Below, piece after piece: positions 1 to 43,846 of a stretch of 43,846 bases of DNA (position 1 is its first letter; each line of letters opens with the position of its first letter). Location of the stretch: positions 1-43,846 of the IMG/VR virus record IMGVR_UViG_3300043409_001923, one strand, 5' to 3'. The notes beneath the pieces are model-generated. The model did no database searches, had not been told where the DNA came from, and saw nothing but the letters and a program-made list of their open reading frames with translations. The position numbers were made by a program, and so were the translations under genes. Source of the DNA: a virus.

Positions 1-353
1 GCCTCAAGGCGTGGCTGCGCTACATGGACGACACGGTGATCTTCGCGCGCAGCCGCGAGGTGCTGGCGGTCATCCAGCACGGCCTCAAGTGGTTTTCAGA
101 GGTCAACATGGGCCTGGCCTTTTCCAAGTGGAGCATCGGCCAGATCAGCCAGGGGCTCGACTGGCTGGGCTATCGCATCTGGCCCACGCACAAGCTGCTG
201 CGCCGTCGTTCGGTCATTGCGGCAAAACGCAAGATCGCCCGTTATCGGCGCATCGAGGACGGCCTCGCGCTTTCCCGTTTCATTGCTTCATGGCGCGGCC
301 ACGCGCAATGGGCGAACTCTCACAACCTTCTCAATCGACTAGGAGTCGCATGA
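1..353 (+). CDS. brt: DGR reverse transcriptase, C-terminal part (5' end outside window)
   Basis: The reading frame is open from the window edge (first full codon at 3). It carries the catalytic motif RYMDD at about 21-35, the two aspartates that bind metal in reverse transcriptases, then LGYRIWPTHKLLRR, typical of the C-terminal part of DGR enzymes. In DGRs this enzyme copies the template-repeat RNA with adenine-specific errors, and the cDNA replaces the variable repeat of a target gene. Roughly 117 codons remain; the family is about 300-400 residues, so the N-terminal two thirds lie outside. The TGA at 351-353 overlaps the next start (ATGA). The matching target and the start of avd are at the far right edge, so the cassette order is mtd, avd, TR, brt, as in phage BPP-1. 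Confidence 0.93.
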   Translation, partial: LKAWLRYMDDTVIFARSREVLAVIQHGLKWFSEVNMGLAFSKWSIGQISQGLDWLGYRIWPTHKLLRRRSVIAAKRKIARYRRIEDGLALSRFIASWRGHAQWANSHNLLNRLGVA

Positions 354-3190: not shown

Positions 3191-3218
3191 ATGTTAGTAT
3201 CCACTTTCGCTGTATTGC

Positions 3219-3271
3219 TGGTGCCCAGGAAGGGACTCGAACCCCCACGGAGTTACCCGCTAGTACCTGAA
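3219..3271 (-). other. attP: attP core identical to the 3' half of a tRNA, probably tRNA-Leu(CAG)
   Basis: Read on the minus strand, this stretch gives an anticodon loop TTCAGGT (anticodon CAG), a 3' anticodon strand ACTAG, a long variable arm CGG-GTAACT-CCG, a T arm with loop TTCGAGT, and an acceptor end CCTGGGC-A-CCA. Upstream of the loop the bases no longer pair as an anticodon stem, so only the tRNA 3' half is present. A long variable arm plus CAG anticodon means tRNA-Leu. Integrases commonly use such tRNA halves so that the host gene is restored on integration. It lies next to the integrase gene, with phage genes on both sides. Confidence 0.85.
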
Positions 3272-3357: not shown

Positions 3358-4389
3358 TCACGGCTGTTTGCGGAGCGGTATTCGGTGGATTTTCTTGCCG
3401 CGTGCGGCGGTGTAGTGTTCGGTCATTGCCTGGCTGGCATGGCCGAGTAAATCCTGCGCAGCGTCGAGGCCGGCCTGGTCACGCAAGTCAGTGCCCGACT
3501 TGCGGCGCAAGTCACGAAACTGGAAATCCTTGCCGGCGATGCCAGCGTCCGTGCGGGCCTTCTCGAACCGGGCGCGCAGCTTGTGCTTGGTCATTCGCCC
3601 GCCAGCTTCATCGACCAGCAGGTAGATCGAGGTGACGGCGTGCTCGGCTTTGCGCCGCTCGATGCGTTCGAGCAATTCAGCCAGGGGGCCAATGAGGGCA
3701 ATGCGCTGCGGGGTGCCGGTCTTGCCCTGCCGGTATTCGAGATAGCCGTCTTTGGCATTGACCTTGCGCATGGTGATAACGTCGGCGGGGCGCTGGCCGA
3801 TGTAGTAGGCAAGGTCCATCGCGTCCTTCAGATCGATTGCCGCTTTGGAATACACCGCGTCGAGCATGTCATCGCTGATATAGATCGCCTTGCGGCCGGG
3901 TAACTTCTTCAGTGTTACCGCTTCTTTCGGGTCGTTCTTCGTCAGCCCGAGGCCCCGGGCGAAGCGGAAGATCATGCCAAGGATAGCCACCTCGCGCTGG
4001 GCGCGGTGCTTCGATTCCACGCCGCGCTTCATCAGGTATTTGTTCAAGTGCGCCGGGGTGATCTGGTCGAGCGGCGCATCGCCAAAGGCAACCACCAGCT
4101 TGTCGATGGCGAACTTGTAATCCTTCTGCGTGTCGGTGCCCCGTTCATTGTAGGCAGGACTGGCCAGATATTGAGCAATTGCGTAGCCAACGGTCGGCAG
4201 CACCGGGTTGGGCGACATGTTCAGCTCTGCCCACTTCTGCACGGCGAGCACGTAGTCGGACCCGAGCGGTATATCCTTGCGCGGCTTGCCCCCGTCGTCG
4301 TAGTAATAGTAGGTTGGTCCGCCTGGACGGCGCTGCTTCGCACGCATCCGGGGTGGGAGGTTGGAATTTACCGAAGGTTTGCGGCCCAT
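3358..4389 (-). CDS. int: Tyrosine-recombinase integrase
   Basis: 343 residues from ATG 4389 (MGRKPSVNSNLPPRMR, a usual opening for this group; a GTG four codons upstream is also possible). Domains in order: N-terminal arm-binding region with a Tyr-rich strand (about 10-45), SAM-like core-binding domain (about 65-150), catalytic domain (about 165-340). Visible catalytic residues are R200 (GQRPADV), K223 (QGKTG), R292/R295 (FRDLRR), H317 (LLGH) and nucleophile Y326 (TEHYT). The usual first His of the HxxR box is Arg here, a variant seen in some phage integrases. It recombines attP with attB for lysogeny. It is the last gene of the leftward operon and overlaps DUF4224 by 22 bp. Confidence 0.93.
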   Translation of the reverse strand: MGRKPSVNSNLPPRMRAKQRRPGGPTYYYYDDGGKPRKDIPLGSDYVLAVQKWAELNMSPNPVLPTVGYAIAQYLASPAYNERGTDTQKDYKFAIDKLVVAFGDAPLDQITPAHLNKYLMKRGVESKHRAQREVAILGMIFRFARGLGLTKNDPKEAVTLKKLPGRKAIYISDDMLDAVYSKAAIDLKDAMDLAYYIGQRPADVITMRKVNAKDGYLEYRQGKTGTPQRIALIGPLAELLERIERRKAEHAVTSIYLLVDEAGGRMTKHKLRARFEKARTDAGIAGKDFQFRDLRRKSGTDLRDQAGLDAAQDLLGHASQAMTEHYTAARGKKIHRIPLRKQP

Positions 4390-4574
4390 TTTGGTTCCCA
4401 CGTTTTCGGTTGCGTCGGTTGTTTGCCGCCTTCGATGGCTGACCGGGCGACGGCCGGGCGGCCAGCGGCGTTGACTCTGAATGGTATGCCCTGGCGGCGC
4501 AGCTCTGCAACCTGCTTGCTGTGCCAGCGGTATCCGGTCAGGATGTAGAGTTCTTCGTCATCCAAAAACATCAT
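4368..4574 (-). CDS. DUF4224 family protein, integrase partner
   Basis: 68 residues. The core LYILTGYRWHSKQVAELRRQGIPFRVNAAGRPAV matches the DUF4224 pattern (LTG, KQ..WL...GI.F.....G.P.V), a small putative DNA-binding family almost always encoded next to phage integrases and suspected to act as an excisionase or accessory factor. The start ATG overlaps the preceding stop (ATGA). The ORF ends inside the integrase gene, so the two are probably translated together. Confidence 0.75.
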   Translation of the reverse strand: MMFLDDEELYILTGYRWHSKQVAELRRQGIPFRVNAAGRPAVARSAIEGGKQPTQPKTWEPKWAANLR

Positions 4575-4813: not shown

Positions 4814-6204
4814 CGTTGTTTCCTCTTCATGGCTTCAAGTAGTAGGTCTTGCACCTCGCGCTTCGACTCGCGGCGGGCCATCACCAGCTCGTCCACGGTG
4901 TCGGCGGCGACAATGTGGTAGATGAACACCGGGCGGTCGTGCCCGGCCTGCGCCTGGCGCGTGGGGCCAATGCGCTCGATGATTTGCTGGAACTCTTCGA
5001 GGTTCCAGTTGTGGCCGAAGAAGGCCAGGATGTTGCCGCCGTCCTGCAAGTTCAGGCCGTGGCCGGCACTGGCCGGATGGGCGAACAACACCGGGATTTT
5101 TCCCGCGTTCCAGTCGCGGATGGTTTGCGGGTTCTTGTCGAGCGCGCGCCCCTTGGGGAAGGTGCGCTGCAGGCGGGCGAGGTCACTCTTGAAGTGATAG
5201 GCGACCAGTACCGGCATGCCGGCCGCTTCCTCGATCACGTCTTCAAGGGCTTGCAGCTTGGCGTCATGGACTTCGGCAAAGGCGCTGCACTGCTCGTCGG
5301 TATAGAGAGCACCGTTCGCCAGTTGCAGGCACTTCATGGTCTTGCTGGCGGCGTTGAACGCTTCTACTTCGGTGCCGCAATCGAGCGCGAGGAACATTTC
5401 GCGTTCCATGTCGCGGTACAGGCGGCGGGCTTTGGCCGGCAGTTCCACGCGGATGACGTTGACGATGGGCTCGGCAATGTCGAAGTAATCGCGGGCGTTG
5501 AGGGCAAGGCACAGATCCCGCAAGCGGTCTTCAATCTGTTCCTGGGCGAAGGGCAACGGGTCAAGGCGTACCGCGTGGCGGTCGTTGCCCACTTGAATGG
5601 ACTGGAACCACCGCGACTTGAACGCCTCGAAGCTGCGGCCAAGGCGCACGCCCTGGTCGAGGAACCACGCTTGCCCCCACAAATCCGCCAGGCCGTTGGG
5701 GCTGGGCGTGCCGGTCAGTTCGATGAAGCGGTCGACCTTGCAATGGGCCACGCGGGCGAGTTCGTGCGCGCGCTTGCCGCCCTGTTTGAGGCGGAAGGAC
5801 TTGAGCTTGGTGGATTCGTCGGCCACGACCTTGCGGAATGGCCACTTGTTGCCGAAGTGCTCGACCAACCACGGCAGGTTCTCGTAGTTGGTGGTGTAGA
5901 TCGTCGCCGGGCGCTTGAGCGCGGCGCGGCGCTCTTCGGGCGTGCCGACAACGGCCGACACTTCCACGTTGCGCAAGTGCGCCCACTTCCGCGCCTCGTC
6001 GGGCCAGGTGCTCGTCGCCACGCGCAGCGGGGCGAGCACCAGCGCGGGGCCGGGTTCGGTCAGTTCGAGGATGTCGAGCGCGGTCAGCGTGCCGACACTC
6101 TTGCCCATGCCCATGCCGGCCCATATCGCGCAGCGTGGCAGGTCGAGCGCCTGCTCGATGATGGCGTGCTGATACTCGCGGGGGGTGAATGCCTGGCGGG
6201 TCAC
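4810..6204 (-). CDS. SNF2-like superfamily 2 helicase/ATPase
   Basis: 464 residues from a GTG at 6204 that overlaps the previous stop (GTGA) with AAAGGTGGC upstream; this gives MTRQAFTPREYQ, the normal opening of phage SNF2-like proteins. Visible motifs: Q-motif-like PREYQ; Walker A GMGMGKS (30-36); Walker B DEST rather than DEAH; motif III ELTGTPSPNG; C-terminal RecA domain with HGLNLQDGG and motif VI QIIERIGPTRQ. Such enzymes use ATP to move along or remodel duplex DNA and sit in phage replication or recombination operons. The single-domain size matches phage relatives, shorter than chromatin SNF2 proteins. Substrate unknown. Confidence 0.88.
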   Translation of the reverse strand: MTRQAFTPREYQHAIIEQALDLPRCAIWAGMGMGKSVGTLTALDILELTEPGPALVLAPLRVATSTWPDEARKWAHLRNVEVSAVVGTPEERRAALKRPATIYTTNYENLPWLVEHFGNKWPFRKVVADESTKLKSFRLKQGGKRAHELARVAHCKVDRFIELTGTPSPNGLADLWGQAWFLDQGVRLGRSFEAFKSRWFQSIQVGNDRHAVRLDPLPFAQEQIEDRLRDLCLALNARDYFDIAEPIVNVIRVELPAKARRLYRDMEREMFLALDCGTEVEAFNAASKTMKCLQLANGALYTDEQCSAFAEVHDAKLQALEDVIEEAAGMPVLVAYHFKSDLARLQRTFPKGRALDKNPQTIRDWNAGKIPVLFAHPASAGHGLNLQDGGNILAFFGHNWNLEEFQQIIERIGPTRQAQAGHDRPVFIYHIVAADTVDELVMARRESKREVQDLLLEAMKRKQR

Positions 6205-6762: not shown

Positions 6763-8829
6763 TCAATCCTTGCGGTAGCGGTAGGCTTCGAAGCCGGCCG
6801 CAGCAAGCGGCAGGTTCTCGGCCCAAGGGGGCGTGGTTGCCATCAATCCGGCCAGGTGGTCGGCGTTGAATTTTTTGCGGTCGGGTGCTTCGGTGATGTT
6901 TTCGTCGTGCACCGTCAGCACAATCTCGTAGCCAGCGGCTTCAATGGCCGGCATGTTGCAGGCGAGTACATCGCGGCTGGCGGCCTGGGTCACGTTCTCG
7001 GCGAGCTTGCCGCCGTAGGTCTTGAGGCGCGACCACTTGCGGGAATACTGATTGACGCCCATGTACGAGAGCTTGCCGGCTTCATCAACCTGCGGGCTCG
7101 GGTAGCACAGGAAGCGGCCGGACGGCAGGCGGATACGCAGCCACGCGCCGTCGCGGCGCAGCTTGAGCATGCGGCATTCATAGGTCACGCCAGGGCGCAG
7201 CACGGCCAGGCGGGCGGCTTCGTCGAGGTCTTTCCAGAATGAAGCGATGGCCGGGTGGGCGTAACGCCACGAGCGCTTGAACGAATCGCAGACCAGCCAG
7301 GCGCGGTCGGTCAGGTCGAAGGTCGGGCGGCCTTGCTGCTTTGTCCATTCCAGCGCCTTGGCGGCTTCGGCCAGGATGTTGGCCGGGATAGCGCCGATGG
7401 CCTGCTCGCCCATGGCTTCGAGGTCGATACCGTAAGCGGCCGCAAACGTGAGGAAGGCACTGACCCCGCCTTCGTAGCCGAGGGCGAGTTCCTGCACCTT
7501 GCCGACTTGCCGGTTGTCCTTGGTCACGGCTTCGGGCTTGATGCCGAACGACTTGGCATAGGCCAGCTTGTAGAGGTCGTGGCCCTTGCCGGCGTCGTAG
7601 TCGCGGAAGGCCTGCAGCTTCCATTCCTCGCCGGCCAGCCAGGCGAGCACCCGGCCTTCGATGTTGGACAGGTCAGCAACCACCAGCTTCTTGCCGGCGG
7701 GCGCAACGATGGCCCCACGAATGGCGCTGCTCGTCAGCTCCATGACGTTGCCGAACAGCAGGTCTTCGCAATCCGATTTCATCGCCTCGATGCCGAGGTC
7801 GATCTTGTCTTGATCGAGCACCGGGCGCGGCAGGTTTTGCGGCTGGAACAGGCGACCGGCCCAGCGGCCCGTGCGGCTGGCCCCGTTGAATTGCAGGGTG
7901 CCGCGCAGGCGGCCGTCGCAGCTCACGGCCTTGACGAGGGTTTTATATTTGCTCGTGCTGGTGGTGCTGGCCTGCAAGCGGATGGCGAGCAGTTCGCGCA
8001 ACTCGGGCGGCAGGTCGGCGTCATTGACGCGCCGTTCCAGCGTGCTTTGCTGCATGTCCGGCAACTCGATGCCGTAGGCGGCCGTCAAATGCTTGAGCAA
8101 GGCGTCGCGCTGCGTGGCCGACTGCACCACGCCTTCGGTCAGCTTGTCGGTGCGGGCGGCAAGAATCTTTTGCGCGCGTTCCACGGCACGAATGGCGGCG
8201 TGGGCGAGGTCGACGTCGACCTTGACGCCTCGGTCGTTGATGCGCTGGTCGAGGTGCCACAAGGCCAACTCACTGCCCTGGAAGTTCCACACCGGCAGCT
8301 TCTTGTCGATCGCGCGCATGGCCTCGATGTCGAGCGCGGCGTACTCCACGAACTTGGCCCACTCGGCGGGGTGTGTTTCGCGCGTGGCGCGGCGCACCTT
8401 GCTGGTGGCCGGGCGCGGCTTGCAGAACAGCATGATGAGCTGACGGCCGGCTTTGTCCTTGGCCTTGTCGGTCGGCACCTTGAGGATGTCGCACAGATCG
8501 CCCAGCGAGCCCGGCAGGGAGTGGGCCAGGGCCCTGACCATGGTGTCGCGCCAGCGGTCGAGCGACGAGCACCACTCGGGCATGGCGTGGTGCAGCACCG
8601 TGCGGTCAAAATGCGAATTGTGAGCGCACACCGTAACGCCCTGGACACATAAGGCGGCGGCCAGTTTGTCGGGTATGCGCCGGGTTTCGGTACGGTCCCA
8701 CACGCTGACCGGGCCGTCGTCGATGGCGTAGGCAAAAAGCATGACTTCCGCGTGTTCGGCGTAGGCGTGGGTGCCGTTGGTGATCGGCACTTCGCTGTAG
8801 GTTTCGAGGTCCAAATAAAGCGTGGTCAT
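6763..8829 (-). CDS. Phage DNA polymerase, family A (Pol I-like)
   Basis: 688 residues from ATG 8829 (MTTLYLDLETYSEV, placing exonuclease motif I at the N-terminus as in relatives); a longer frame to 8907 runs through an inverted repeat and is unlikely. Domains: 3'-5' exonuclease (DLETYS at about 8-13; further acidic motifs to about 190), then polymerase with motif A VVADLSNIEGR, motif B NRQVGKVQELALGYEGG and motif C LTVHDENITE. These carry the two metal-binding aspartates and the O-helix Lys/Tyr. It replicates the phage genome together with the primase-helicase of the rightward operon and the ssDNA-binding protein just upstream. Confidence 0.93.
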   Translation of the reverse strand: MTTLYLDLETYSEVPITNGTHAYAEHAEVMLFAYAIDDGPVSVWDRTETRRIPDKLAAALCVQGVTVCAHNSHFDRTVLHHAMPEWCSSLDRWRDTMVRALAHSLPGSLGDLCDILKVPTDKAKDKAGRQLIMLFCKPRPATSKVRRATRETHPAEWAKFVEYAALDIEAMRAIDKKLPVWNFQGSELALWHLDQRINDRGVKVDVDLAHAAIRAVERAQKILAARTDKLTEGVVQSATQRDALLKHLTAAYGIELPDMQQSTLERRVNDADLPPELRELLAIRLQASTTSTSKYKTLVKAVSCDGRLRGTLQFNGASRTGRWAGRLFQPQNLPRPVLDQDKIDLGIEAMKSDCEDLLFGNVMELTSSAIRGAIVAPAGKKLVVADLSNIEGRVLAWLAGEEWKLQAFRDYDAGKGHDLYKLAYAKSFGIKPEAVTKDNRQVGKVQELALGYEGGVSAFLTFAAAYGIDLEAMGEQAIGAIPANILAEAAKALEWTKQQGRPTFDLTDRAWLVCDSFKRSWRYAHPAIASFWKDLDEAARLAVLRPGVTYECRMLKLRRDGAWLRIRLPSGRFLCYPSPQVDEAGKLSYMGVNQYSRKWSRLKTYGGKLAENVTQAASRDVLACNMPAIEAAGYEIVLTVHDENITEAPDRKKFNADHLAGLMATTPPWAENLPLAAAGFEAYRYRKD

Positions 8830-8846
8830 TGCGGGTCCGTGGTTGG

Positions 8847-8910
8847 TTTTTGCAGTGCCCTGCGGTTGATCCCGCAACCTTTCTCCTATAGAGGCAGGGC
8901 ACTGCAAAAA
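8847..8910. repeat. Perfect 17-bp inverted repeat in the polymerase leader
   Basis: TTTTTGCAGTGCCCTGC at 8847-8863 is exactly complementary to GCAGGGCACTGCAAAAA at 8894-8910, separated by 30 bp that contain a nested GGTTG/CAACC pair (8864-8868 and 8875-8879). In the polymerase mRNA it would form a large stem-loop just upstream of the start codon. It shares its left-hand bases with the T run of the terminator at 8906-8926. It could be an attenuator, antiterminator, RNA-stability element or protein-binding site. Confidence 0.7.
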
Positions 8911-8926
8911 GCCCTCTTTCGAGGGC
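8906..8926 (-). terminator. Intrinsic terminator after the ssDNA-binding protein gene
   Basis: On the minus strand, GCCCTC, loop GAAA, GAGGGC is followed by TTTTT, 8 bp after the stop of the ssDNA-binding protein gene. It would stop or attenuate leftward transcription before the polymerase and integrase genes, so read-through or antitermination would be needed. Its T run is part of the adjoining 17-bp inverted repeat. Confidence 0.7.
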
Positions 8927-8933
8927 GCGAGGG

Positions 8934-9482
8934 TTAAACGAGGTCGTCGGCGGTTGCGCCTTCGGCGATGTCGTCGAACTCGTCTTCACTGGCGGCACCG
9001 CCACCGGCAAAGGCGTCGCCATCCTTGAAGAACTGAACACCGCGCAGGCTGGCGTTGATGCGCTTGCCGTAGTTGTTGTCCTGCGCCCACAGTTCGACGC
9101 TGGCATTCACGTAGCAGCCGGCATACGGCTTGCCGTCCTGCTCGGCCAGGGGCGACTTGTCCTTGTCGATGACCAGCGGGCGGGTGGCGCTGCGCGCGGA
9201 CACGTACAGGTTGCCGGGGAAGCCGTCATAGTTCGACTTGAGGTCGCCGTCGTGCAGGGCCACCTTGTCGGTGGCGCGCATCTGCTTGAGCACGGCGTCG
9301 GCCTTGGTGCCCCACTTCTCTTTTGCCACTTGCTCGATGGCCTGATTCAGCGCCTTGACCTGGGGGTCGGCGGGGTCAATCAGGAACGAGGCGGAAAAAG
9401 CGGGCTTGCCTTCGCCATTCACGGTTTTGGCTTCGAAGAGCACCGGGAAGGCCAGGCGCACGTTGTTGAGTTTTACTTTCAT
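8934..9482 (-). CDS. Phage ssDNA-binding protein (Enc34/DUF2815 family)
   Basis: 182 residues from ATG 9482, with AAGGAG upstream; the longer frame to 9509 overlaps the neighbour needlessly. The opening MKVKLNNVRLAFPVLFEAK, the central YDGFPGNLYVSARS, then GKPYAGCYVNASVELWAQDN and GKRINASLRGVQFFKDG follow the Enc34 ssDNA-binding fold. The C-terminus is acidic (SEDEFDDIAEGATADDLV), as in many ssDNA-binding proteins that recruit partners through their tails. It should coat single strands during replication and recombination with the polymerase and DUF2800 nuclease in the same operon. Confidence 0.85.
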   Translation of the reverse strand: MKVKLNNVRLAFPVLFEAKTVNGEGKPAFSASFLIDPADPQVKALNQAIEQVAKEKWGTKADAVLKQMRATDKVALHDGDLKSNYDGFPGNLYVSARSATRPLVIDKDKSPLAEQDGKPYAGCYVNASVELWAQDNNYGKRINASLRGVQFFKDGDAFAGGGAASEDEFDDIAEGATADDLV

Positions 9483-11381: not shown

Positions 11382-11771
11382 TTACTTGGTGTTTTTGGCG
11401 AGGTCCGCCAGGCGGGAAAGAACATCGCCGGCATCGGTGGCAATGTCGAAAAACTGGTCAGCCCGTTGCAACTTGGCGCGCAACTGGTCGGGCGTGTGGA
11501 TGTCGTCATCGTTCAGGACTTGCAGCAGCTCGGCCATTTCCTTGAGGCTGGACGGGTGCGACTCGCACACGGCCTTGAGGTCGTTGCAGTCGATTTCGTA
11601 GTCGTCGACGACTTCACGAAAGCCGGGGTCTTCCTGATCGAGCAGGGCTTCAAAGCGGGTGAGCAGTTCGACCTCGGCGGCCGTGCTGGTCAAGGGGTCG
11701 AGTTCGGAATGCAGCGCCATGACGAGGTGGCTATCGTCCATGGAGGCCATGAGGTTCGCGGTCAGGGCCAT
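11382..11771 (-). CDS. Acidic hypothetical early protein
   Basis: 129 residues, acidic and helical, opening MALTANLMASMDDSHLVMAL, with EVELLTRFEALLDQE and a C-terminal QLRAKLQRADQFFDIATDAG. No Cys pairs, membrane segments or known motif. It begins 3 bp after the stop of a 32-codon ORF and ends just before the next gene's ribosome site, so it belongs to the leftward early operon. Many phage proteins at this position bind host or DNA targets; here the role is unknown. Confidence 0.65.
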   Translation of the reverse strand: MALTANLMASMDDSHLVMALHSELDPLTSTAAEVELLTRFEALLDQEDPGFREVVDDYEIDCNDLKAVCESHPSSLKEMAELLQVLNDDDIHTPDQLRAKLQRADQFFDIATDAGDVLSRLADLAKNTK

Positions 11772-11774
11772 GGC

Positions 11775-11873
11775 TTACAGCCCGCAGCACATAAAGAGGA
11801 CATCGACGAACGAGGCATCGCCTGTGCGTGCGCCTTGCTCGATGCACATTTGGAGGTATTGCTGGTTGAACAT
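11775..11873 (-). CDS. 32-residue first ORF of the leftward operon
   Basis: From ATG 11873, with AAGGAGCGC upstream, it encodes MFNQQYLQMCIEQGARTGDA and ends FVDVLFMCCGL. The longer frame to 11957 would start inside the operators and is not credible. It is the first translated element downstream of the leftward promoter. Three Cys residues and a hydrophobic end are the only notable features. It may be a leader peptide coupling the next gene. Confidence 0.5.
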   Translation of the reverse strand: MFNQQYLQMCIEQGARTGDASFVDVLFMCCGL

Positions 11874-11902
11874 GGTTTGCGCTCCTTGTTGTTGATGGAG
11901 CA

Positions 11903-11932
11903 ATATTAAAACAATTGTTTTCTGTCGGTCAA
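11903..11932 (-). promoter_or_regulatory. Leftward early promoter (PL-like)
   Basis: On the minus strand: -35 TTGACC (11932-11927), an 18-nt spacer, -10 TAATAT (11908-11903). It drives the whole leftward operon beginning at 11873. One operator fills the spacer and a second abuts the -35, so repressor binding would block polymerase. The layout repeats that of the rightward promoter at 13437-13466. Confidence 0.85.
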
Positions 11933-11945
11933 TAACAATTGTTGT
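11908..11945. promoter_or_regulatory. Two left operators (OL-like)
   Basis: AAAACAATTGTTTT (11908-11921, a perfect palindrome) and, on the minus strand, ACAACAATTGTTAT (11945-11932). Both hold the AACA-NN-TGTT core found three times between cI and cro. Centres are 24 bp apart, close to the spacing that lets lambda-type repressor dimers cooperate. Confidence 0.85.
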
Positions 11946-11969
11946 ATTTCTACACAAATTTTTTTCAAC

Positions 11970-11991
11970 AAAAAGCCCGCACGCGGCGGGC
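11970..11991 (-). terminator. Terminator of the lysogeny operon
   Basis: On the minus strand, GCCCGC, a 5-nt loop, GCGGGC and then a T run. It lies just downstream of the lipoprotein gene and separates the lysogeny operon from the leftward promoter. Confidence 0.8.
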
Positions 11992-12011
11992 CAAGTTGAA
12001 ATCAGGAAAAG

Positions 12012-12389
12012 CTAAATACTGGGGGCGGGTGGCGGCGGGGGCGGTACGTATCTTTCGTCGACGCATTGATAGACGATTCGGTAGGTCTTTGACCAGCACG
12101 GGCTAAGGCCTTGCGGATGGCAGGCTATCTGAACTGGTAACTGGCTGTTGAAAACCTCCGCGCCGGCATACCCCCAGTTCTTGCACCGCCTGGCGGCCTC
12201 GGCGTTTGCCTGCTGCGCGTCCCACTGAACCTCTGTTTCGCTGATCCCCATCTTTGGCGGCACTTCAATACCAAGGACAACCGCGCCGTCTGCCTTGCTG
12301 CCGCCTACACCGACCCAGTTCATCCTTTCGATTGTCGTGCAGCCGGCGAGCGCAGTTGCGGTCAACATGGAAATCAGGGCGGTTTTCAT
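12012..12389 (-). CDS. YecR-like lipoprotein, candidate lysogenic-conversion gene
   Basis: 125 residues: signal peptide with lipobox (TALAGC, Cys17), then a domain with AEAARRCKNWGYAGAEVFNS, HPQGLSPCWSKTYRIVYQCV and a Pro-rich tail. The GY..AE.F pattern and Cys spacing resemble the YecR-like lipoprotein family, whose role is poorly known. It is the third gene of the cI operon, overlapping the membrane-protein gene by four bases (ATGA). It should therefore be made in the lysogen and reach the outer membrane, a position suited to superinfection exclusion or surface change. Function inferred from location only. Confidence 0.7.
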   Translation of the reverse strand: MKTALISMLTATALAGCTTIERMNWVGVGGSKADGAVVLGIEVPPKMGISETEVQWDAQQANAEAARRCKNWGYAGAEVFNSQLPVQIACHPQGLSPCWSKTYRIVYQCVDERYVPPPPPPAPSI

Positions 12390-12715
12390 TCCGAGCGCCA
12401 GTTGCTTGGCGAGTGTTTCTTGAAGTAGGTATCTTTAACGGTTTGGTGAGCAGGGAAGTCTGGAACAGCATCAGGCGCATTTTCTTGCTGGGCGTGGTTC
12501 TTCGCGGTTTGCTTGCGGTCGGAATAGTCCCACCAAGCCTTTCGATAGGCCAGCAGAGCATACCAAACAGCAAAGAGCAGCAGGAAAGGCCAGAAGCAAA
12601 CCCACGCCAACCAGTGCGCTGGTCCGGGGGTGCCCCATTCATCGCGCCAGGGCAATACGGCCACCGCCAACAGCAGGCCAACAGCAATTGACGCGAGCAT
12701 CCAGAGGGCGGTCAT
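12386..12715 (-). CDS. Membrane protein co-transcribed with cI
   Basis: 109 residues with two hydrophobic segments (about 3-20, ALWMLASIAVGLLLAVAV, and about 36-56, LAWVCFWPFLLLFAVWYALL), then a charged cytoplasmic-type tail. The ATG overlaps the cI stop (ATGA). Expression with the repressor suggests a lysogeny function such as superinfection exclusion, a role played by small membrane proteins in other prophages. No family recognised. Confidence 0.65.
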   Translation of the reverse strand: MTALWMLASIAVGLLLAVAVLPWRDEWGTPGPAHWLAWVCFWPFLLLFAVWYALLAYRKAWWDYSDRKQTAKNHAQQENAPDAVPDFPAHQTVKDTYFKKHSPSNWRSE

Positions 12716-17172: not shown

Positions 17173-17274
17173 TGGAACGTTTGGAACGTTTCTAGCCCTT
17201 TTTTAAGGAAGTTTCTCACGTGTACATGAGAAGAAGTTAGTCAAAAAACCGTGAAAAACGTTCCAAACGTTCCA
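17173..17274. repeat. 19-bp inverted repeat made of tandem GGAACGTTT units
   Basis: TGGAACGTTTGGAACGTTT (17173-17191) and AAACGTTCCAAACGTTCCA (17256-17274) are perfect inverted copies 64 bp apart. Each arm is two direct GGAACGTTT units on a 9-bp period. A smaller pair, TTCTCA and TGAGAA, lies between. It occupies the 239-bp gene-free stretch 17069-17307 between replication and packaging genes, a good place for an origin, a late-gene switch or a packaging site. The rest of the stretch has loose TTCTGC/TTTGCA repetitions and no ORF. Confidence 0.7.
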
Positions 17275-18024: not shown

Positions 18025-19516
18025 CCCTGCGCTGATTGCCTACCTCACGCCCGAGGAACTGGCCCAACTCGATGCGCTGATTGCCAGCGACCCAACCATC
18101 TGGCGGCCCTTGCCCGGGCCGCAGCGCCTGGCCTACGAATCCACCGCCGACATCATCGGCTATGGCGGCGCAGCCGGCGGCGGCAAGACCGACCTGGCCT
18201 GCGGCAAGGCCTTGACCCAGCACCAGAAGGTGCTCGTGCTGCGCCGTGAGGCGACGCAGCTTACCGGCATCATCGACCGATTCACCGAACTGATCGGCGG
18301 CCGCGACGGCTACAACGGCGCAGAACGCATCTGGCGACTGCCACGCAAGCAAATCGAGTTCGGTTCTACCCCGAACCTCGACGACTGGAACAAGTACCAG
18401 GGCCGCCCCCACGACCTGCTGGTGTTCGACGAGGCGGCCAACTTCCTTGAAAGCCAGGTGCGCGCCCTGCTCGGCTGGCTGCGCTCGGTGGATCCGGCCC
18501 AGCGCTGCCAGGCGCTGCTGACTTTCAACCCGCCGACCACGGCCGAGGGCCGGTGGATCGTCGCCTTCTTCGCGCCGTGGCTCGACCCGAAGCACCCGAA
18601 TCCGGCGCAGCCGGGCGAGCTGCGTTACTTCGCCATGATCGACGGCGAAGAGGTCGAGGTAGCGACCGGCCAACCCTTCACGCACGGCGCGGATTTGGTC
18701 ACGCCACTCTCGCGCACCTTCATCCCCTCGCGGGTATCGGACAACCCCTACCTGACAGGAACCGGCTACATGGCGACCTTGCAATCCCTGCCCGAGCCCC
18801 TGCGCTCGCAAATGCTCTACGGCGACTTCCAGGCGGGTATCGAGGACGACCCGTGGCAGGTCATCCCCACGGCTTGGGTGGAAGCGGCACAAGCGCGCTG
18901 GAAGCGGCCCGACAAGCTGGCCGCGATGGATTCGCTCGGCGTCGACGTGGCGCGCGGCGGGCGCGACCAGACCATCATCGCCCGCCGGCACGGTATGTGG
19001 TTCGACGTGCCCCTGGTCTATCCGGGCACCGCGACGCCGGACGGCCCGGCGGTGGCTGGCTTGTCGATTGCTGCCAAGCGCGACGATGCCGTGATCCATA
19101 TCGATGTCATCGGCGTCGGCTCGTCGCCCTACGACTTTCTCAACGAGGCCCGCCAGCAAGTGGTCGGCGTCAATGTCTCGGAATCCGCCACCGCAACGGA
19201 CAGGTCCGGCCGACTGCGTTTCAAGAACCTGCGTTCGCAACTGTGGTGGCAGATGCGCGAGGCGCTGGACCCGACCAGCAACACGGGCATTGCGTTGCCG
19301 CCCGACCGCGAGCTGCTGGCCGACCTGTGCGCCCCGACGTGGGAACTGTCGGGCTCGACCATCTACGTGGCGAGCCGCGAGCAGATCATCGACAAGATCG
19401 GCCGTTCGCCCGACTTCGGCAGCGCCTACGTGCTGGCCCTCATGGATACCCCCAAGCGCGCCGTCATTGCTGCGCTGGGTGGCAAGAAGCAGCGGGAATA
19501 CGACCCCTACCGCTAG
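18005..19516 (+). CDS. terL: Terminase large subunit
   Basis: 503 residues from ATG 18005 with AAGGA upstream; an ATG two codons earlier at 17999 is an alternative. The ATPase domain has Walker A GYGGAAGGGKT (52-62, K61) and Walker B LLVFDEAAN (D142, E143). The nuclease domain has SLGVDVARGGRDQT (D314) and a later acidic motif in HIDVIGVGSSPYD. The protein cuts concatemers and pumps DNA into the prohead through the portal. Its TAG stop is joined directly to the first copy of the GGGTGCACGTAC element. Confidence 0.95.
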   Translation: MLATSFDPALIAYLTPEELAQLDALIASDPTIWRPLPGPQRLAYESTADIIGYGGAAGGGKTDLACGKALTQHQKVLVLRREATQLTGIIDRFTELIGGRDGYNGAERIWRLPRKQIEFGSTPNLDDWNKYQGRPHDLLVFDEAANFLESQVRALLGWLRSVDPAQRCQALLTFNPPTTAEGRWIVAFFAPWLDPKHPNPAQPGELRYFAMIDGEEVEVATGQPFTHGADLVTPLSRTFIPSRVSDNPYLTGTGYMATLQSLPEPLRSQMLYGDFQAGIEDDPWQVIPTAWVEAAQARWKRPDKLAAMDSLGVDVARGGRDQTIIARRHGMWFDVPLVYPGTATPDGPAVAGLSIAAKRDDAVIHIDVIGVGSSPYDFLNEARQQVVGVNVSESATATDRSGRLRFKNLRSQLWWQMREALDPTSNTGIALPPDRELLADLCAPTWELSGSTIYVASREQIIDKIGRSPDFGSAYVLALMDTPKRAVIAALGGKKQREYDPYR

Positions 19517-19549
19517 GGTGCACGTACCAAGGCCGGCAGCGCATAGATT
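19516..19549 (+). promoter_or_regulatory. Bipartite late element, copy 1
   Basis: GGGTGCACGTAC, exactly 16 nt, then TAGATT. It directly follows the terL stop codon (its first G is the last base of TAG) and precedes the acetyltransferase ATG at 19556. The same two boxes and spacing recur at 26302 and 41622, so it is probably a promoter or activator-promoter pair. Confidence 0.7.
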
Positions 19550-19555
19550 GCCGGC

Positions 19556-20014
19556 ATGACCATCACGATTCGAAAACGCGCCGCCATCGAAATCCTCGAC
19601 GCGCCAAACATCGCCGACCTGCTGGCGGAGTACGCTGCGGAGTCGGCTATCGATGGGCTCGGCTGGCCGATGGCGCACCTCGACACCTACCAGGCGCTCG
19701 ATGCTTCCGGGATTCTGCACGCGCTTGGCGCGTTCGATGGCGACACCCTCGTCGGGTTTCTGTTTTTCATCGTATCCCGGTTGCCGCACTACAACGCCCA
19801 GCCCGTCGCCACGTCCGAATCGTTTTTCGTGGCCAGCACGGCCCGCAAAAGCGGCGCGGGGTTGAAGCTGCTGCACGAGGCCGAGCACGCCGCGCGGGAA
19901 CTGGGGGCCGTCGGCTTTCTGGTCAGCGCGCCTGTGGGCAGCCGCCTCGAAAGTGTATTGCCTGCCGTGAGCTACCGCGAAGCGAGCCGTGTGTTCTTCC
20001 GGGGGCTTTTGTGA
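19556..20014 (+). CDS. GNAT-family acetyltransferase
   Basis: 152 residues. The fold order is readable: an N-terminal strand-helix (IRKRAAIEILDAPNIADLLA), the substrate part, FLFFIVSRLPHYN, SFFVASTARKSGAGLKLL (the Arg/Lys-x-x-Gly-x-Gly/Ala acetyl-CoA loop) and a C-terminal VGFLVSAPVGSRLES. Members in podovirus head modules have unknown substrates. It follows copy 1 of the bipartite element with no Shine-Dalgarno, and its stop overlaps the next GTG. Confidence 0.8.
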   Translation: MTITIRKRAAIEILDAPNIADLLAEYAAESAIDGLGWPMAHLDTYQALDASGILHALGAFDGDTLVGFLFFIVSRLPHYNAQPVATSESFFVASTARKSGAGLKLLHEAEHAARELGAVGFLVSAPVGSRLESVLPAVSYREASRVFFRGLL

Positions 20015-24091: not shown

Positions 24092-26302
24092 ATGGCCATT
24101 GCATTCCGCGCCGCCGGCACCTGGACCGCCGGCACTACCTCAATCGCGCCGCCGCTGCCCGCCGGGGTGGCAGCGGGCGACTTGATGCTGCTGGCGGTCA
24201 ATACCTCCAATCAGGCCGTCACCACGCCCTCGGGCTGGACGCAGGTAACGACCAGCCCGGTCAGCACCGGCACCGCAGGCACGGCAGGCGGGACGCGGAT
24301 TACCCTGTATTACCGTTGGCGGCAGTCGGGCGACGGTGCGCCGACGGTTGCCGTCACCAGTGGCGAAAGCACGCAGGCGCGCATCTTCGCCTATTCCGGC
24401 GTTGATAACACCACCCCGTTCGATGCGACCCCGGTCGCCACCACACTGGCAACGGCCAACACCGCGCTGACGCTGGCGGCAATCACCACCGCCTCGGCAA
24501 ACGCGCTGATCTTCTGGGCGGTCGGGCGCGACATCGACGCCAACGCGACGACCGGCGTCACGGCATTTACCAACGCCAACCTGACCTCGATCACTGAACG
24601 CAACGACCAGACGGTCACGACGGGAACGGGCGGCGGCTTGTGGGTGGGCGATGGCTTCAAGGCGACGGCCGGCAGCACTGGCACGACGGCAGTCACCCAG
24701 TCGTCGAGCATCGCGGTTGGCCTCACGGTCGCGCTGCGCCCCCTGGTAGATGTCACGGTCGGGCTGACCGGTAATACCTCGGCCGCTTCAGCCGGCGCGA
24801 TCACGCCGAGCATTGCGGTCACGGTTGCCCTCACCGGGCAGTCAGCCACGGCAGCAGCGGGCGCGCTGGTGCCGTTTGCGCCCGACCGCACGGTCGCGCT
24901 GTCCGGTCAGGTAGTCACCACCGCAACCGGCGCGGTAACGACGCTGCACCAGATGTACGGCACAAATCAGGACTGGGGGCTGATTACCCAGACGCCGGCC
25001 GAGAGTAACTACGACTTTGGGGCAATCACCGACGCGCCGGGCTTGATGATCGACCTGCTCGGCCTGTGGGATGGCTTCACGGTTGCGCTGTCCGGCCAGG
25101 TGGCTGCGGTCAGCGGCGGCAGCCTCTACGCCTTCCAGCAGATTCTCGGCAAGTCGCAAGACTTCGGTTCGATCACCACTCCGCTGGAGGCCAGCTACGA
25201 TTTCGGGCAAGTCGCCGTCGCGTATGGTGCAGCCGTCGATTTCGGCAACCTTCAAACGGCGGTAACGCTGGCCCTGTCCGGCCAGTTGGCCACGGTGGCC
25301 AGCGGCACGCTCACGCCGTCGATTGCGGTCAACGTCGCTTTGTCCGGGCAAACGGCCAACACCAGCGGCGGCACGCTGGCGGCAACGCAAGCGCTCTCGC
25401 GGGCGCTGACCGGGCAAACCGCGAGCGCAGCGGGCGGCACCCTGACGGCAAGCCAGGCATTGACCCGGGCGCTGACCGGTCAGCAAGTTGCCGCAAGCGC
25501 AGGCACGCTGACCCCGAGCATCGCCAACACGGTCGCGCTGTCCGGCCAGGTGGCGACCGCTACGCCGGGCACGCTCACGCCGACCATTGCCGTGACCGTG
25601 GCGCTGACCGGTCAGCAGGCGGCATCCGCAGCCGGCACCCTGACAGCGAGCCAGGCGCTGACGCGTGCCCTGACCGGTCAGCAAGTGGCCGCAACCAACG
25701 GCACGCTCACGCCGAGCATTGCGGTCAACGTCGCTTTGTCCGGGCAACAAGTCGCCTCGGCAGCCGGCACCACCACACCCAGCCAGGGCGCGGGCGATGT
25801 CACGGTGGCGCTCGGCGGGCAGGCACTGGCAGCTTCTGCCGGCACGCTGGCCACCAGCCAGGCGGTCACGCTGGCGCTGTCCGGCCAAGTTGTTGCGCCC
25901 ACCCTGGGCAGCTTGACGACCAGCCAGGCGCTGGCCCTTGCCCTGAGCGGGCAGGCAGTCGCCGCAGCCGCCGGCAGCATGGCGGCCCAGCGTTCCCTGG
26001 CGCTGTCCGGCCAGGTGGCCACGGCGACCGGCGGCACGCTCGGCAAACAGATCACCATCGGCCTGCAGGGGCAGCAGGTCACTGCCGTCGGCGGCGCGCT
26101 GGCGACCAGTCAGGCCATCGTCATCCCCTTGAGCGGTGCCCAGCTCGCAGCGCTGACCGGCACCCTGACGGCGAGCGTTGTTTCCTACGGCTGGCCGAGT
26201 CCGGGCGACGTGCGCCTCGGCGTGCAATACGGCCCAACCGGCAGCGAATACACCGGCACGCTGACCCCGCAAAAAAATACCGTCCTGGTTCGCCGTCGCT
26301 AG
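24092..26302 (+). CDS. Large repeat-containing surface protein (18 x ~22 residues)
   Basis: 736 residues. Residues 1-215 form a beta-rich domain (FRAAGTWTAGTTSIAPPLPA, then GWTQVTT, TLYYRWRQSGDG, RIFAYSGVD) as in phage and bacterial surface proteins. From about 220 to 700 there are about 18 copies of a 22-residue unit with consensus (V/R)AL(S/T)GQ, seven variable residues, GTLT, then S-x-A. Two longer inserts (NYDFGAI and SYDFGQV segments) break the array near residues 290-385 and look like an internal duplication. No signal peptide. It stands between portal and capsid genes and ends in copy 2 of the bipartite element. A capsid-fibre or decoration role is likely. Confidence 0.7.
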   Translation: MAIAFRAAGTWTAGTTSIAPPLPAGVAAGDLMLLAVNTSNQAVTTPSGWTQVTTSPVSTGTAGTAGGTRITLYYRWRQSGDGAPTVAVTSGESTQARIFAYSGVDNTTPFDATPVATTLATANTALTLAAITTASANALIFWAVGRDIDANATTGVTAFTNANLTSITERNDQTVTTGTGGGLWVGDGFKATAGSTGTTAVTQSSSIAVGLTVALRPLVDVTVGLTGNTSAASAGAITPSIAVTVALTGQSATAAAGALVPFAPDRTVALSGQVVTTATGAVTTLHQMYGTNQDWGLITQTPAESNYDFGAITDAPGLMIDLLGLWDGFTVALSGQVAAVSGGSLYAFQQILGKSQDFGSITTPLEASYDFGQVAVAYGAAVDFGNLQTAVTLALSGQLATVASGTLTPSIAVNVALSGQTANTSGGTLAATQALSRALTGQTASAAGGTLTASQALTRALTGQQVAASAGTLTPSIANTVALSGQVATATPGTLTPTIAVTVALTGQQAASAAGTLTASQALTRALTGQQVAATNGTLTPSIAVNVALSGQQVASAAGTTTPSQGAGDVTVALGGQALAASAGTLATSQAVTLALSGQVVAPTLGSLTTSQALALALSGQAVAAAAGSMAAQRSLALSGQVATATGGTLGKQITIGLQGQQVTAVGGALATSQAIVIPLSGAQLAALTGTLTASVVSYGWPSPGDVRLGVQYGPTGSEYTGTLTPQKNTVLVRRR
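24750..26190 (+). repeat. Degenerate ~66-bp tandem coding repeat
   Basis: The DNA encoding the 22-residue units repeats about every 66 bp, with near-identical blocks such as GGCACGCTCACGCCG and GCGCTGACCGGTCAGCA. Copies have drifted, but adjacent blocks are similar enough to recombine, so copy number may differ between relatives. Confidence 0.75.
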
Positions 26303-26335
26303 GGTGCACGTACCTCGGCCAGAGGCGCTTAGATT
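26302..26335 (+). promoter_or_regulatory. Bipartite late element, copy 2
   Basis: GGGTGCACGTAC, exactly 16 nt, TAGATT; its 12-mer and TAG box are identical to copy 1, and the flanks share GGCC and GCGC at the same positions. It directly follows the stop of the repeat protein and precedes the Bbp19-like ATG at 26342. Confidence 0.7.
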
Positions 26336-26341
26336 GCGGGC

Positions 26342-26692
26342 ATGAGCAATTACGACCCGACCGACCTCCGCAGCCAGGAGCGCACCAAGGCCGACAACGA
26401 CCTGCGCAACAAGCTGGCGAGGGAAACGGAAGAATCGGACCTCAAGTGGCTCATGGGCAGCAAGCGGGGGCGTCGAATTATGTGGCGTCTTCTGGATCAA
26501 GCCGGGGTGTTCCGGCTCTCGTTCAACACCAACGCGATGCAGATGGCTTTCGCGGAAGGGAACAAGAACGCGGGCCTGCGCATTCTCGCAATGATTCACA
26601 CGCTCTGCCCTGAGCTGTACCCCGTGATGGTCAAGGAAGCGACAAATGACAACCGAAACCCTGATGACGACCGAAGCCGCAACGACCACTGA
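26342..26692 (+). CDS. Bbp19-like head-module protein
   Basis: 116 residues. The block DLKWLMGSKRGRRIMWRLLD, then FRLSFNTNAMQMAFAEGNKN and GLRILAMIHTLCPELY matches the Bbp19-like domain named for phage BPP-1, a small helical protein encoded just before the scaffold and capsid. Function not established. It has no Shine-Dalgarno and starts 7 bp after a TAGATT box, so the mRNA could be nearly leaderless. Its end overlaps the scaffold gene by 47 bp. Confidence 0.8.
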   Translation: MSNYDPTDLRSQERTKADNDLRNKLARETEESDLKWLMGSKRGRRIMWRLLDQAGVFRLSFNTNAMQMAFAEGNKNAGLRILAMIHTLCPELYPVMVKEATNDNRNPDDDRSRNDH

Positions 26693-41682: not shown

Positions 41683-42474
41683 ATGACAATTTCCAGCCCT
41701 ACCAACAAAGCCGGGCCGTTCTTCGCCAACGGGCTGGTGACGACGTTTTATTTTGATTTCCGCGTGTTTCAGGCGTCCGATGTTCAGGTCGTCAGTACGG
41801 ATATTGCGGACATCGACACCAACCTAACGTCCGGCTATACCGTGGCGCTGAACGCGAACCAGGGCACGCAGCCGGGCGGCTATGTCCGCTTCCAGACGGC
41901 CCCCGCATCGGACGTGCGCATCACGATCCTGCGCAGTCTCGACATGACGCAAGGCACCTCGTTACCGAATCAGGGCGGCTTTTACCCGAAGGTTATCGAG
42001 AACGCCCTGGACAAGCTGACCATGCTGGTTCAGCAGCTATCCGAGCAAGTCGGCCGCGCCTATAAAACCTCGGTCGTTTCGCCGGCCATCGATAACCTGG
42101 GCGGTTATCTGCAACAGGCCGAAGCGGCGGTGGGCGAGGCGGAAACGGCAGCAGCAGCGGCCGAAGCGGCGGTGGTCGAGGCGGAGACAGCAGCGGCAGC
42201 GGCCGCCGTCCATGCTGGACAGACGGCAGCGTACCTGATCGAAGCGGCCGCCGTGGTCGCCGCAGCAACAGACCCGGTAGCGGCCGTCGTCACGGCCTAT
42301 ATCGACGGCCATATGCCGACCGGCCAACCGACGGACTTCAGCGCCATTTATTCGCCGGGGGGCTGGGATATGGGCACGGTGGTCCCTGACGCACCCTTCA
42401 TCAATGAAGCATTTACCCGCCGAGCAAGTCTGTCGGTCGGCAGCGGCATCTTTAATTTTGGAACACTCACGTAA
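41683..42474 (+). CDS. Tail fibre protein with T7-like N-terminal domain
   Basis: 263 residues from ATG 41683 with GGGAG upstream (a GTG at 41674 is less well spaced). Residues 1-130 (FANGLVTTFYFDFRVFQASD, TSGYTVALNANQGTQPGG, SLPNQGGFYPKVIENALDKL) match the T7 gp17-type domain that attaches fibres to the tail. Residues 140-210 are an Ala/Glu coiled coil. The C-terminal 50 residues probably hold the distal tip. In BPP-1 the DGR target is displayed at fibre tips, and the target gene follows here after 12 bp. Confidence 0.88.
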   Translation: MTISSPTNKAGPFFANGLVTTFYFDFRVFQASDVQVVSTDIADIDTNLTSGYTVALNANQGTQPGGYVRFQTAPASDVRITILRSLDMTQGTSLPNQGGFYPKVIENALDKLTMLVQQLSEQVGRAYKTSVVSPAIDNLGGYLQQAEAAVGEAETAAAAAEAAVVEAETAAAAAAVHAGQTAAYLIEAAAVVAAATDPVAAVVTAYIDGHMPTGQPTDFSAIYSPGGWDMGTVVPDAPFINEAFTRRASLSVGSGIFNFGTLT

Positions 42475-42486
42475 GGAGAACACCCC

Positions 42487-43761
42487 ATGTCCGATCAGGT
42501 ACAACTACGCGGCGGCACTACCGTAGAACATGCGTCTTTTACCGGCGCAGTCCGGGAAGTCACCGTCGACACCACCAAGAAAACCCTTGTCATCCACGAT
42601 GGCGCGACGATGGGCGGTACGCCGCTGCTGCGCCAGGACCTGGCCAACCTGCCGGCGGCATCTGTCAGCTATGACGATCTCGCAGCCGGCGTGCTCGACC
42701 CCTTGCTGTTTTACAAGGTTGACGCCTTCTCGCCGGCCTTCACCAAGACCGGCGCAGGCACCTTGAGCGTCAAGGCCGGCACCTCGGCCATGGTGGCGGG
42801 GGTCAAAGTAGCCTGGGCGGCCGATACCGCCATCACCATGCCGACCCTGACCGGCGGCAACGATTACGCAATCTATGTGTGTACCGACGGCACGATCCGC
42901 GCCGACGCCAACACCTCGGCACCGTCCGGCTACAACACCGGCAACAGCCGGAAAATCGGCGGCTTCCACTATGGCCTGGTCGCCAGCGGTACCACAGTGG
43001 CCGGCGGCAGCTTTGCCACCACGGGCAACGGCATGATCTGGACGCAGGGCGACGTGGACAACATCGCCGGCATCAACAAGTTCAGCTTGTGGGATCTGAA
43101 GTTTCGCCCGAGGGTCAGCGACCCGCGCGGCATGGTGCTCGTCAATGATTCGTTCTGGTGTGACATTTACCTGTGTTCCACCGACGTGGATACCAACGGC
43201 ACCAGCAAGGCCGGCACCAACATTGCGTCGGGTACTGTCCTGCCGAAGATTCCGACCGTGTTCGGCGGCAATGGTACGACCACCTACCCTTCGCTCAACT
43301 GGTGGGTCGCCAACGAACTGGCGGCCGCCCGTGCCAAGCGCTTGATGTTCGAAACCGAATTCGTCAGGGCCGCGTTCGGCGTGACTGAAAACCAGTCGAT
43401 TGATGCGACCGCCTCGACCTACCCGACCACGCAGCGCAACGCCGGCTACACCTCCAAGTGGGGCTTGGAAGAGGCGAGCGGCCATCACTGGACCTGGGGT
43501 CAGGACTCGAACTTCAACAGCGAAGCGGCGAGCCCGGCCGGCACCAACAAGACCGTCACCGGCAACACGGGCGCAGCCGGTAGCGAGCGCGGTTCTACCT
43601 ATACCTTCGGCACCTACGGCTTATCTCGCGTGGTTCTCGGCGGCACGCGTGCGAACGGTGTGAACTCTGGTTCTCGGGCTTCCAGCTGGGGCAACTACCC
43701 GTGGAGCTCGTACTTGAGCATCGGGCTGCGGGCCGCCTGTGACCACATGACGCTTGTATAG
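42487..43761 (+). CDS. mtd: DGR-diversified receptor-binding protein (Mtd-like)
   Basis: 424 residues behind AAGGAG. The N-terminal part (QVQLRGGTTVEHASFTGAVR, then VTVDTTKKTLVIHDGATMGG) is a beta-prism-like region as in Mtd; the middle is strand-rich. The C-terminal 190 residues are a C-type lectin fold of the formylglycine-enzyme type (GLEEASGHHWTWGQD, then GGTRANGVNSGSRASSWGN, ending GLRAACDHM). The last 36-residue block aligns without gaps to BPP-1 Mtd as I recall it, keeping GG, SGSRA, W, P, G-x-R and CDH. Display at the fibre tip sets host receptor choice; the DGR mutates this end. Confidence 0.92.
   Translation: MSDQVQLRGGTTVEHASFTGAVREVTVDTTKKTLVIHDGATMGGTPLLRQDLANLPAASVSYDDLAAGVLDPLLFYKVDAFSPAFTKTGAGTLSVKAGTSAMVAGVKVAWAADTAITMPTLTGGNDYAIYVCTDGTIRADANTSAPSGYNTGNSRKIGGFHYGLVASGTTVAGGSFATTGNGMIWTQGDVDNIAGINKFSLWDLKFRPRVSDPRGMVLVNDSFWCDIYLCSTDVDTNGTSKAGTNIASGTVLPKIPTVFGGNGTTTYPSLNWWVANELAAARAKRLMFETEFVRAAFGVTENQSIDATASTYPTTQRNAGYTSKWGLEEASGHHWTWGQDSNFNSEAASPAGTNKTVTGNTGAAGSERGSTYTFGTYGLSRVVLGGTRANGVNSGSRASSWGNYPWSSYLSIGLRAACDHMTLV
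43636..43746 (+). other. Probable variable repeat (VR) of the DGR
   Basis: At the Mtd columns known to vary, the codons here are ACG, GCG, AAC, AAC, AGC, GGC, AAC, TCG, TAC and AGC. Most end in C and can be made from an AAC template by changing adenines, the DGR signature. Fixed residues between them (SGSRA, W, P, GLR, CDH) match. Exact limits need the template repeat, which is outside the window. Confidence 0.75.
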
Positions 43762-43773
43762 CGAGCGCAAGCG
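43751..43773 (+). other. Hairpin just downstream of the variable repeat
   Basis: CGCTTG, 11-nt loop, CAAGCG, spanning the mtd stop codon. DGRs often need a hairpin or cruciform a few bases after VR for target recognition. The stem here is short and the loop longer than in BPP-1, so this is tentative. Confidence 0.45.
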
Positions 43774-43787
43774 AGCGGACACGCATC

Positions 43788-43846
43788 ATGCAAACGCTGA
43801 CTGACGAACATACCAGCCTGAAGCAAATGGCGATTGTCGAGCGCTT
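43788..43846 (+). CDS. avd: Start of DGR accessory protein Avd (3' end outside window)
   Basis: The frame opens MQTLTDEHTSLKQMAIVER and runs off the edge. The QMAIVER stretch matches the N-terminal YDQMLIVERYE of BPP-1 Avd as I recall it, and the gene follows mtd by 26 bp as in that phage. Avd is a small barrel-shaped pentamer that binds the reverse transcriptase and template RNA and is needed for mutagenic homing. Only 19 full codons are visible. Confidence 0.8.
   Translation, partial: MQTLTDEHTSLKQMAIVER

Follow-up and report, generated by a model that had tools for sequence, protein, structure and literature searches.

The DGR of BPP-1 (Rauchvirus BPP1, NC_005357.1) has the order mtd-avd-TR-brt, and its target needs a hairpin or cruciform after the VR, with a GC-rich stem of 7–10 bp and a GRNA loop (PMC3240598). 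Guo et al. 2011 describe such a hairpin as nearly always present in DGRs and could not tell whether it forms on a single strand or on the two strands simultaneously (PMC3240598). Residual homing occurs when the hairpin is absent (PMC3240598, PMC12875486), and the route by which the cDNA enters the VR is described as still incompletely understood in a 2026 reconstitution in E. coli (PMC12875486). In a separate field, d(GC-GNNA-GC) sequences are known as extraordinarily stable DNA mini-hairpins (reviewed in PMC4686876); these are short synthetic oligonucleotides, and the available text of the review draws no link to DGRs.

We have analysed a stretch of viral DNA of 43,846 bp, here called the window, which is the whole of IMG/VR record IMGVR_UViG_3300043409_001923 (G000) and is classed as linear. 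No overlap was found between the two ends of the record, which therefore cannot be closed from itself. The window contains matches to 32 BPP-1 proteins, and around the circle all except bbp28, which is displaced, keep the BPP-1 order; the phage is thus BPP-1-like (Rauchvirus-like) in its shared gene content and order, a comparison that stops short of formal genus assignment. Its integrase is of another type, with no match to the BPP-1 integrase. An unintegrated genome would fit the position of the lysis genes, which adjoin the integrase with no prophage junction. We read the window as a BPP-1-like temperate phage genome that maps as a circle and whose linear record opens within the DGR and, taken jointly with the DGR mechanism and the hairpin described below, put the probability of this reading at about 0.9. 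The host search gave only three genome matches, all of them MAGs of distant groups; the integrase matches are all below 60% identity, in phages of many hosts, and the nearest portal proteins are those of Bordetella phages and then of a Limnohabitans phage. We therefore claim no host.

Several features away from the cassette were also seen. No complete tRNA gene was found in the window; a segment on the minus strand at 3213–3262 resembles the 3′ end of a tRNA (GGTTCGAGTCCC ... GGGCACCA), adjoins the integrase gene (3358–4401) and is likely to be attP. The integration site of BPP-1 is also a tRNA gene, with a different core. In the gene at 24092–26302 (736 aa) a 66-bp (22-aa) unit resembling VALxGQxxxxxxGTLTPS is repeated about 13 times. 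A 52-bp sequence occurs twice, at 19511–19562 and 26297–26348 (85% identical), each time directly before the start of a gene. Its 13-base core occurs nowhere else in the window, and the 9-base test string was not found in BPP-1. An imperfect inverted repeat at 17173–17274, with 51-nt arms (75%) and a repeated GGAACGTTT within its ends, lies just before the gene at 17251 and is possibly a regulatory or packaging site.

The two halves of the DGR lie at opposite ends of the record. At the right end, mtd (42487–43761, plus strand) encodes the target of the DGR, a receptor-binding protein of 424 aa that matches Pfam PF18454 (Mtd_N) and PF21916 (mtd_2nd), both above cut-off, the tail protein family phrog_11262 and the solved structures of BPP-1 Mtd (phmmer E 2e-82). 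It is 44% identical to BPP-1 Mtd and 43 aa longer. The VR core of 104 bp (43640–43743, plus strand) is 91% identical to the TR (7686–7789) of the nearest relative found, IMGVR_UViG_3300001605_004927 (L002), and 21 of its sites are adenines in that TR. An earlier note on this DNA had placed the VR at 43636–43746; the site stands, with limits that are slightly too wide. The 3′ end of the VR (43722–43750, plus strand) is IMH-like, consisting of a GC-rich run common to the L002 TR and then TGTGACCACATGA, a divergent stretch, and the identity with the TR ends after 43743; the definition of the IMH is that of PMC3240598. Next comes the hairpin (43761–43776, plus strand); 26 bases separate the end of mtd from the ATG of avd at 43788. 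The first 19 codons of avd (43788–43846, plus strand) match the Avd of L002 in tblastn, and the rest of the gene is outside the record. At the left end, a C-terminal RT fragment of 116 aa (3–353, plus strand) carries the YMDD active site at 21–32 and is assigned to the DGR type through phrog_1423 and 98% amino acid identity to the L002 RT, its match to RVT_1 falling below cut-off; the N-terminus is outside the record, and the fragment is 48% identical to the BPP-1 RT. VR-like sequence occurs once only in the window, where no near-copy was found, and the TR must therefore also lie outside the record.

The source record, being linear with no end overlap, does not join the two ends, as the earlier note had hoped it might; L002 does. 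Positions 5869–7360 of L002 correspond to 42358–43846 of the window and positions 8553–9053 to 1–501, so that L002 7360 falls on window 43846, L002 8553 on window 1, and ~1.19 kb (about 1,192 bp) is missing from the record. In L002 the order is mtd, avd (7302–7673), TR (7686–7789) and then RT, and its Avd passes the cut-offs of NF033474 and PF22296 (bAvd). The mtd-avd-TR-RT order is intact in many other relatives, and the TR is at the corresponding place, between avd and RT, in most of them. Homologues of both window ends are found on one contig and in the same order in L002, L007, L012, L013, L015 and L018, and BPP-1 has the same map. That the ends are unrelated, through a chimeric contig or as two separate elements, would agree with a linear record whose ends do not overlap, but against these shared arrangements it is scarcely credible. 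Thus, what the earlier note had claimed from the sequence alone, a DGR with an Mtd-type target split across the window ends in the order of the BPP-1 cassette and lacking the rest of avd, the TR and the RT N-terminus, is confirmed. The non-canonical hairpin at the target had escaped the note.

The cassette is one more DGR of a BPP-1-like phage, of a known kind. It shares with BPP-1 the Mtd target, the GC-rich IMH, an RT with YMDD and a hairpin just after the mtd stop codon, as well as the gene map over most of its length and, when completed from its relatives, the order of genes and repeats and the downstream TR. To L002 it is much closer (RT C-terminus 98% and Mtd 87% identical in amino acids, hairpin sequence identical), although L002 is a distinct phage, with other lysis genes beside the cassette and other VR residues at the adenine sites. 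In most of the relatives L003–L020 the similarity to Mtd is confined to the part beyond about residue 70, and their N-termini look like other modules, which suggests that the diversified part has been swapped onto different tail anchors. In L012, an 84-kb contig, a second RT (11755–12591, minus strand), ~30% identical to the DGR RT, lies close to the DGR cassette.

With the TR of L002 as proxy, the window VR differs from the TR at TR adenines. Of the 9 mismatches in 104 positions, 7 fall on the 21 TR adenines and 2 on the 83 other positions (Fisher p=1.5e-4); the comparison is with the TR of another phage, and the two non-adenine mismatches are C43661T and G43715T. The contrast between the two VRs is sharper: window and L002 differ at 14 of the 21 adenine sites and at 2 of the 83 others (p=1.5e-10), in an aligned region of 1.5 kb around mtd that is ~83% identical. 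Across the relatives the TR is downstream of the VR, and the overwhelming majority of mismatches are at TR adenines, totals that lean this way because the score used to extend VR/TR pairs family-wide favours adenine mismatches; many of the ~104-bp pairs have zero non-adenine mismatches. Neither of the outcomes that the earlier note had named as counting against a DGR, no TR near the RT or differences away from adenines, was seen in the relatives. A pair from neighbouring IMG samples, L120 and L121, is 99.47% identical over 6,084 bp with identical TRs, and of the 14 sites at which their VRs differ, 13 are at TR adenines, indicating that diversification has been recent among these relatives.

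By homology to BPP-1, the RNA of the TR would be copied by a complex of Avd and RT that makes errors at adenines, and the cDNA carrying these mutations would replace the VR, the 3′ end of mtd. Such replacement would alter a set of surface codons in the tail-tip receptor-binding protein and, with them, the cells that the progeny can bind; homing would be directed by the IMH and the hairpin at the mtd stop codon. Receptor switching by Mtd, which the earlier note had held probable, is accordingly what the analogy predicts for this phage rather than an observation. We infer that the DGR is intact and active, although the record lacks the TR, the RT N-terminus and all but the start of avd, and some relatives have lost the cassette. 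The close relatives L003, L004, L006, L009 and L025 have neither avd nor RT, and the gene found downstream of the RT in the window comes straight after mtd in them; in L010 avd is fused to the tail of the RT. A similar deletion could lie in the missing 1.19 kb, leaving the VR as a frozen relic of past diversification. We consider this very unlikely: both flanks have been kept, the right one with the IMH, the hairpin and the first codons of avd and the left one with 116 aa of RT, including YMDD, at 98% amino acid identity to the intact RT of L002, and the relatives that lost the cassette lost the hairpin too, except L010. These six genomes are natural controls for cassette loss; L004, L006 and L009 have one common VR sequence.

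The hairpin of the window, GCGAGC [GCAA] GCGAGC, pairs 43766 with 43771, 43765 with 43772, A43764 with G43773, G43763 with A43774, 43762 with 43775 and 43761 with 43776, so that the stem reads from the loop outward C-G, G-C, A.G, G.A, C-G and G-C. It closes only through a tandem 5′-GA/5′-GA mismatch, whereas the BPP-1 hairpin consists of eight Watson–Crick pairs. Like the hairpin or cruciform of Guo et al. 2011 (PMC3240598), it stands just after the VR and IMH, with a four-base G..A loop and G-C pairs beside it, but it departs from the published consensus of a GC-rich Watson–Crick stem of 7–10 bp with a GRNA loop after the VR, having GCAA as its loop and needing the G.A pairs. This does not exclude it from the DGRs, in which the hairpin is nearly always, not always, present and homing persists at a residual level in its absence. 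We propose a tandem G.A class, GA-GC-GNNA-GC-GA after the IMH with paired flanks, which differs from that consensus in having two G-C pairs, the tandem G.A, at least two covarying pairs and GNNA loops, and whose tips are exactly the GC-GNNA-GC of the mini-hairpins (PMC4686876). The window element belongs to it, both of its flanking pairs being Watson–Crick. We infer the geometry of the G.A pairs.

Tandem 5′-GA/5′-GA pairs can be stable in DNA. DNA energy parameters give little stability for an isolated hairpin with G.A pairs and evidently do not reward the tandem mismatch; energy was therefore not used as evidence either way, and we relied on comparison instead. Sites were gathered only by an IMH and a GCGNNAGC tip, blind to positions 3–8, which gave 135 distinct sites. 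Positions 3–4 formed Watson–Crick pairs in 55 of them and the tandem A.G/G.A in 24; the other 56 had some different combination. Both positions 5 and 6 were Watson–Crick in 43/55 of the first class, 19/24 of the G.A class and 11/56 of the remainder, indicating that chance explains most of the remainder but not the G.A class.

A scan for GAGCGNNAGCGA after an IMH found 89 viral stretches, compared with 1 for the opposite-orientation control (AG/AG) and 2 for the other-strand form; none of these 3 control matches has an RT or avd, and a T.T version of the pattern gave zero matches in the same kind of scan. Among 57 distinct G.A sites, 46 with RT and avd downstream, position 5 is Watson–Crick in 52/57 and position 6 also in 52/57, with all four kinds of pair at each. 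The maxima in 5,000 shuffles were 34 (position 5) and 32 (position 6), a comparison that overstates significance because the G.A sites share ancestry. Examples with extended flanks are GGGCC-GA-GC-GGGA-GC-GA-GGCCC (L129) and TAGCAA-GA-GC-GTAA-GC-GA-TTGCTA (L299). In an RT tree of 90 non-redundant sequences, a sample enriched for the G.A type through the GAGCGNNAGCGA scan, 15 changes of hairpin type are counted, of which well-supported branches force at least 7. The 54 cassettes collected by protein homology alone comprised 26 with a Watson–Crick hairpin, 15 of the G.A type and 13 that by these rules fitted neither.

The same bases, written CGAGCG-CAAG-CGAGCG, invite other readings, since the two arms also read as a direct repeat and the element sits between mtd and avd, where a signal for avd translation or termination might be placed. 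In the window and L002, moreover, a CGCTTG/CAAGCG hairpin can form and is preferred there by the folding program; this candidate was set aside, as most relatives cannot form it and do not keep it. A direct repeat predicts neither the Watson–Crick covariation of positions 5 and 6 with all four kinds of pair nor the near absence of the AG/AG and other-strand forms, and in relatives with Watson–Crick stems the hairpin is at the same place. We therefore regard these readings as unlikely and retain the G.A hairpin. Covariation alone would also be compatible with an RNA hairpin in the mRNA; 12 of the 57 loops (GATA, GACA, GGTA and GCTA) break the RNA GNRA rule which, with the stability of GC-GNNA-GC tips in DNA, argues weakly for DNA rather than RNA as the working form.

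The complement of this element would contain C.T mismatches, and its loop would read TNNC. The G.A form is confined to the strand in which the IMH is read, and from these sequence patterns the coding-strand hairpin would be the element recognised. It seems to us reasonably probable that a large share of the DGRs of phages, including the one described here, mark the target with a coding-strand DNA hairpin in which tandem G.A pairs lie beside a GC-GNNA-GC tip, and that retrohoming recognises this hairpin and not a symmetric cruciform, as the other strand forms no equivalent. In the available text of the literature searched, a search that left most subscription journals outside, G.A pairs are nowhere described for the hairpin at a DGR target.

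The cassette itself adds another BPP-1-like phage with a diversifiable receptor-binding protein. Its hairpin, and those of about a quarter of related cassettes (15/54), would be overlooked in searches for Watson–Crick inverted repeats. The bias in strand and orientation bears on whether hairpin formation at the target involves both strands or a single one, and a hairpin that forms well on only one of them would offer a simple test of that question.
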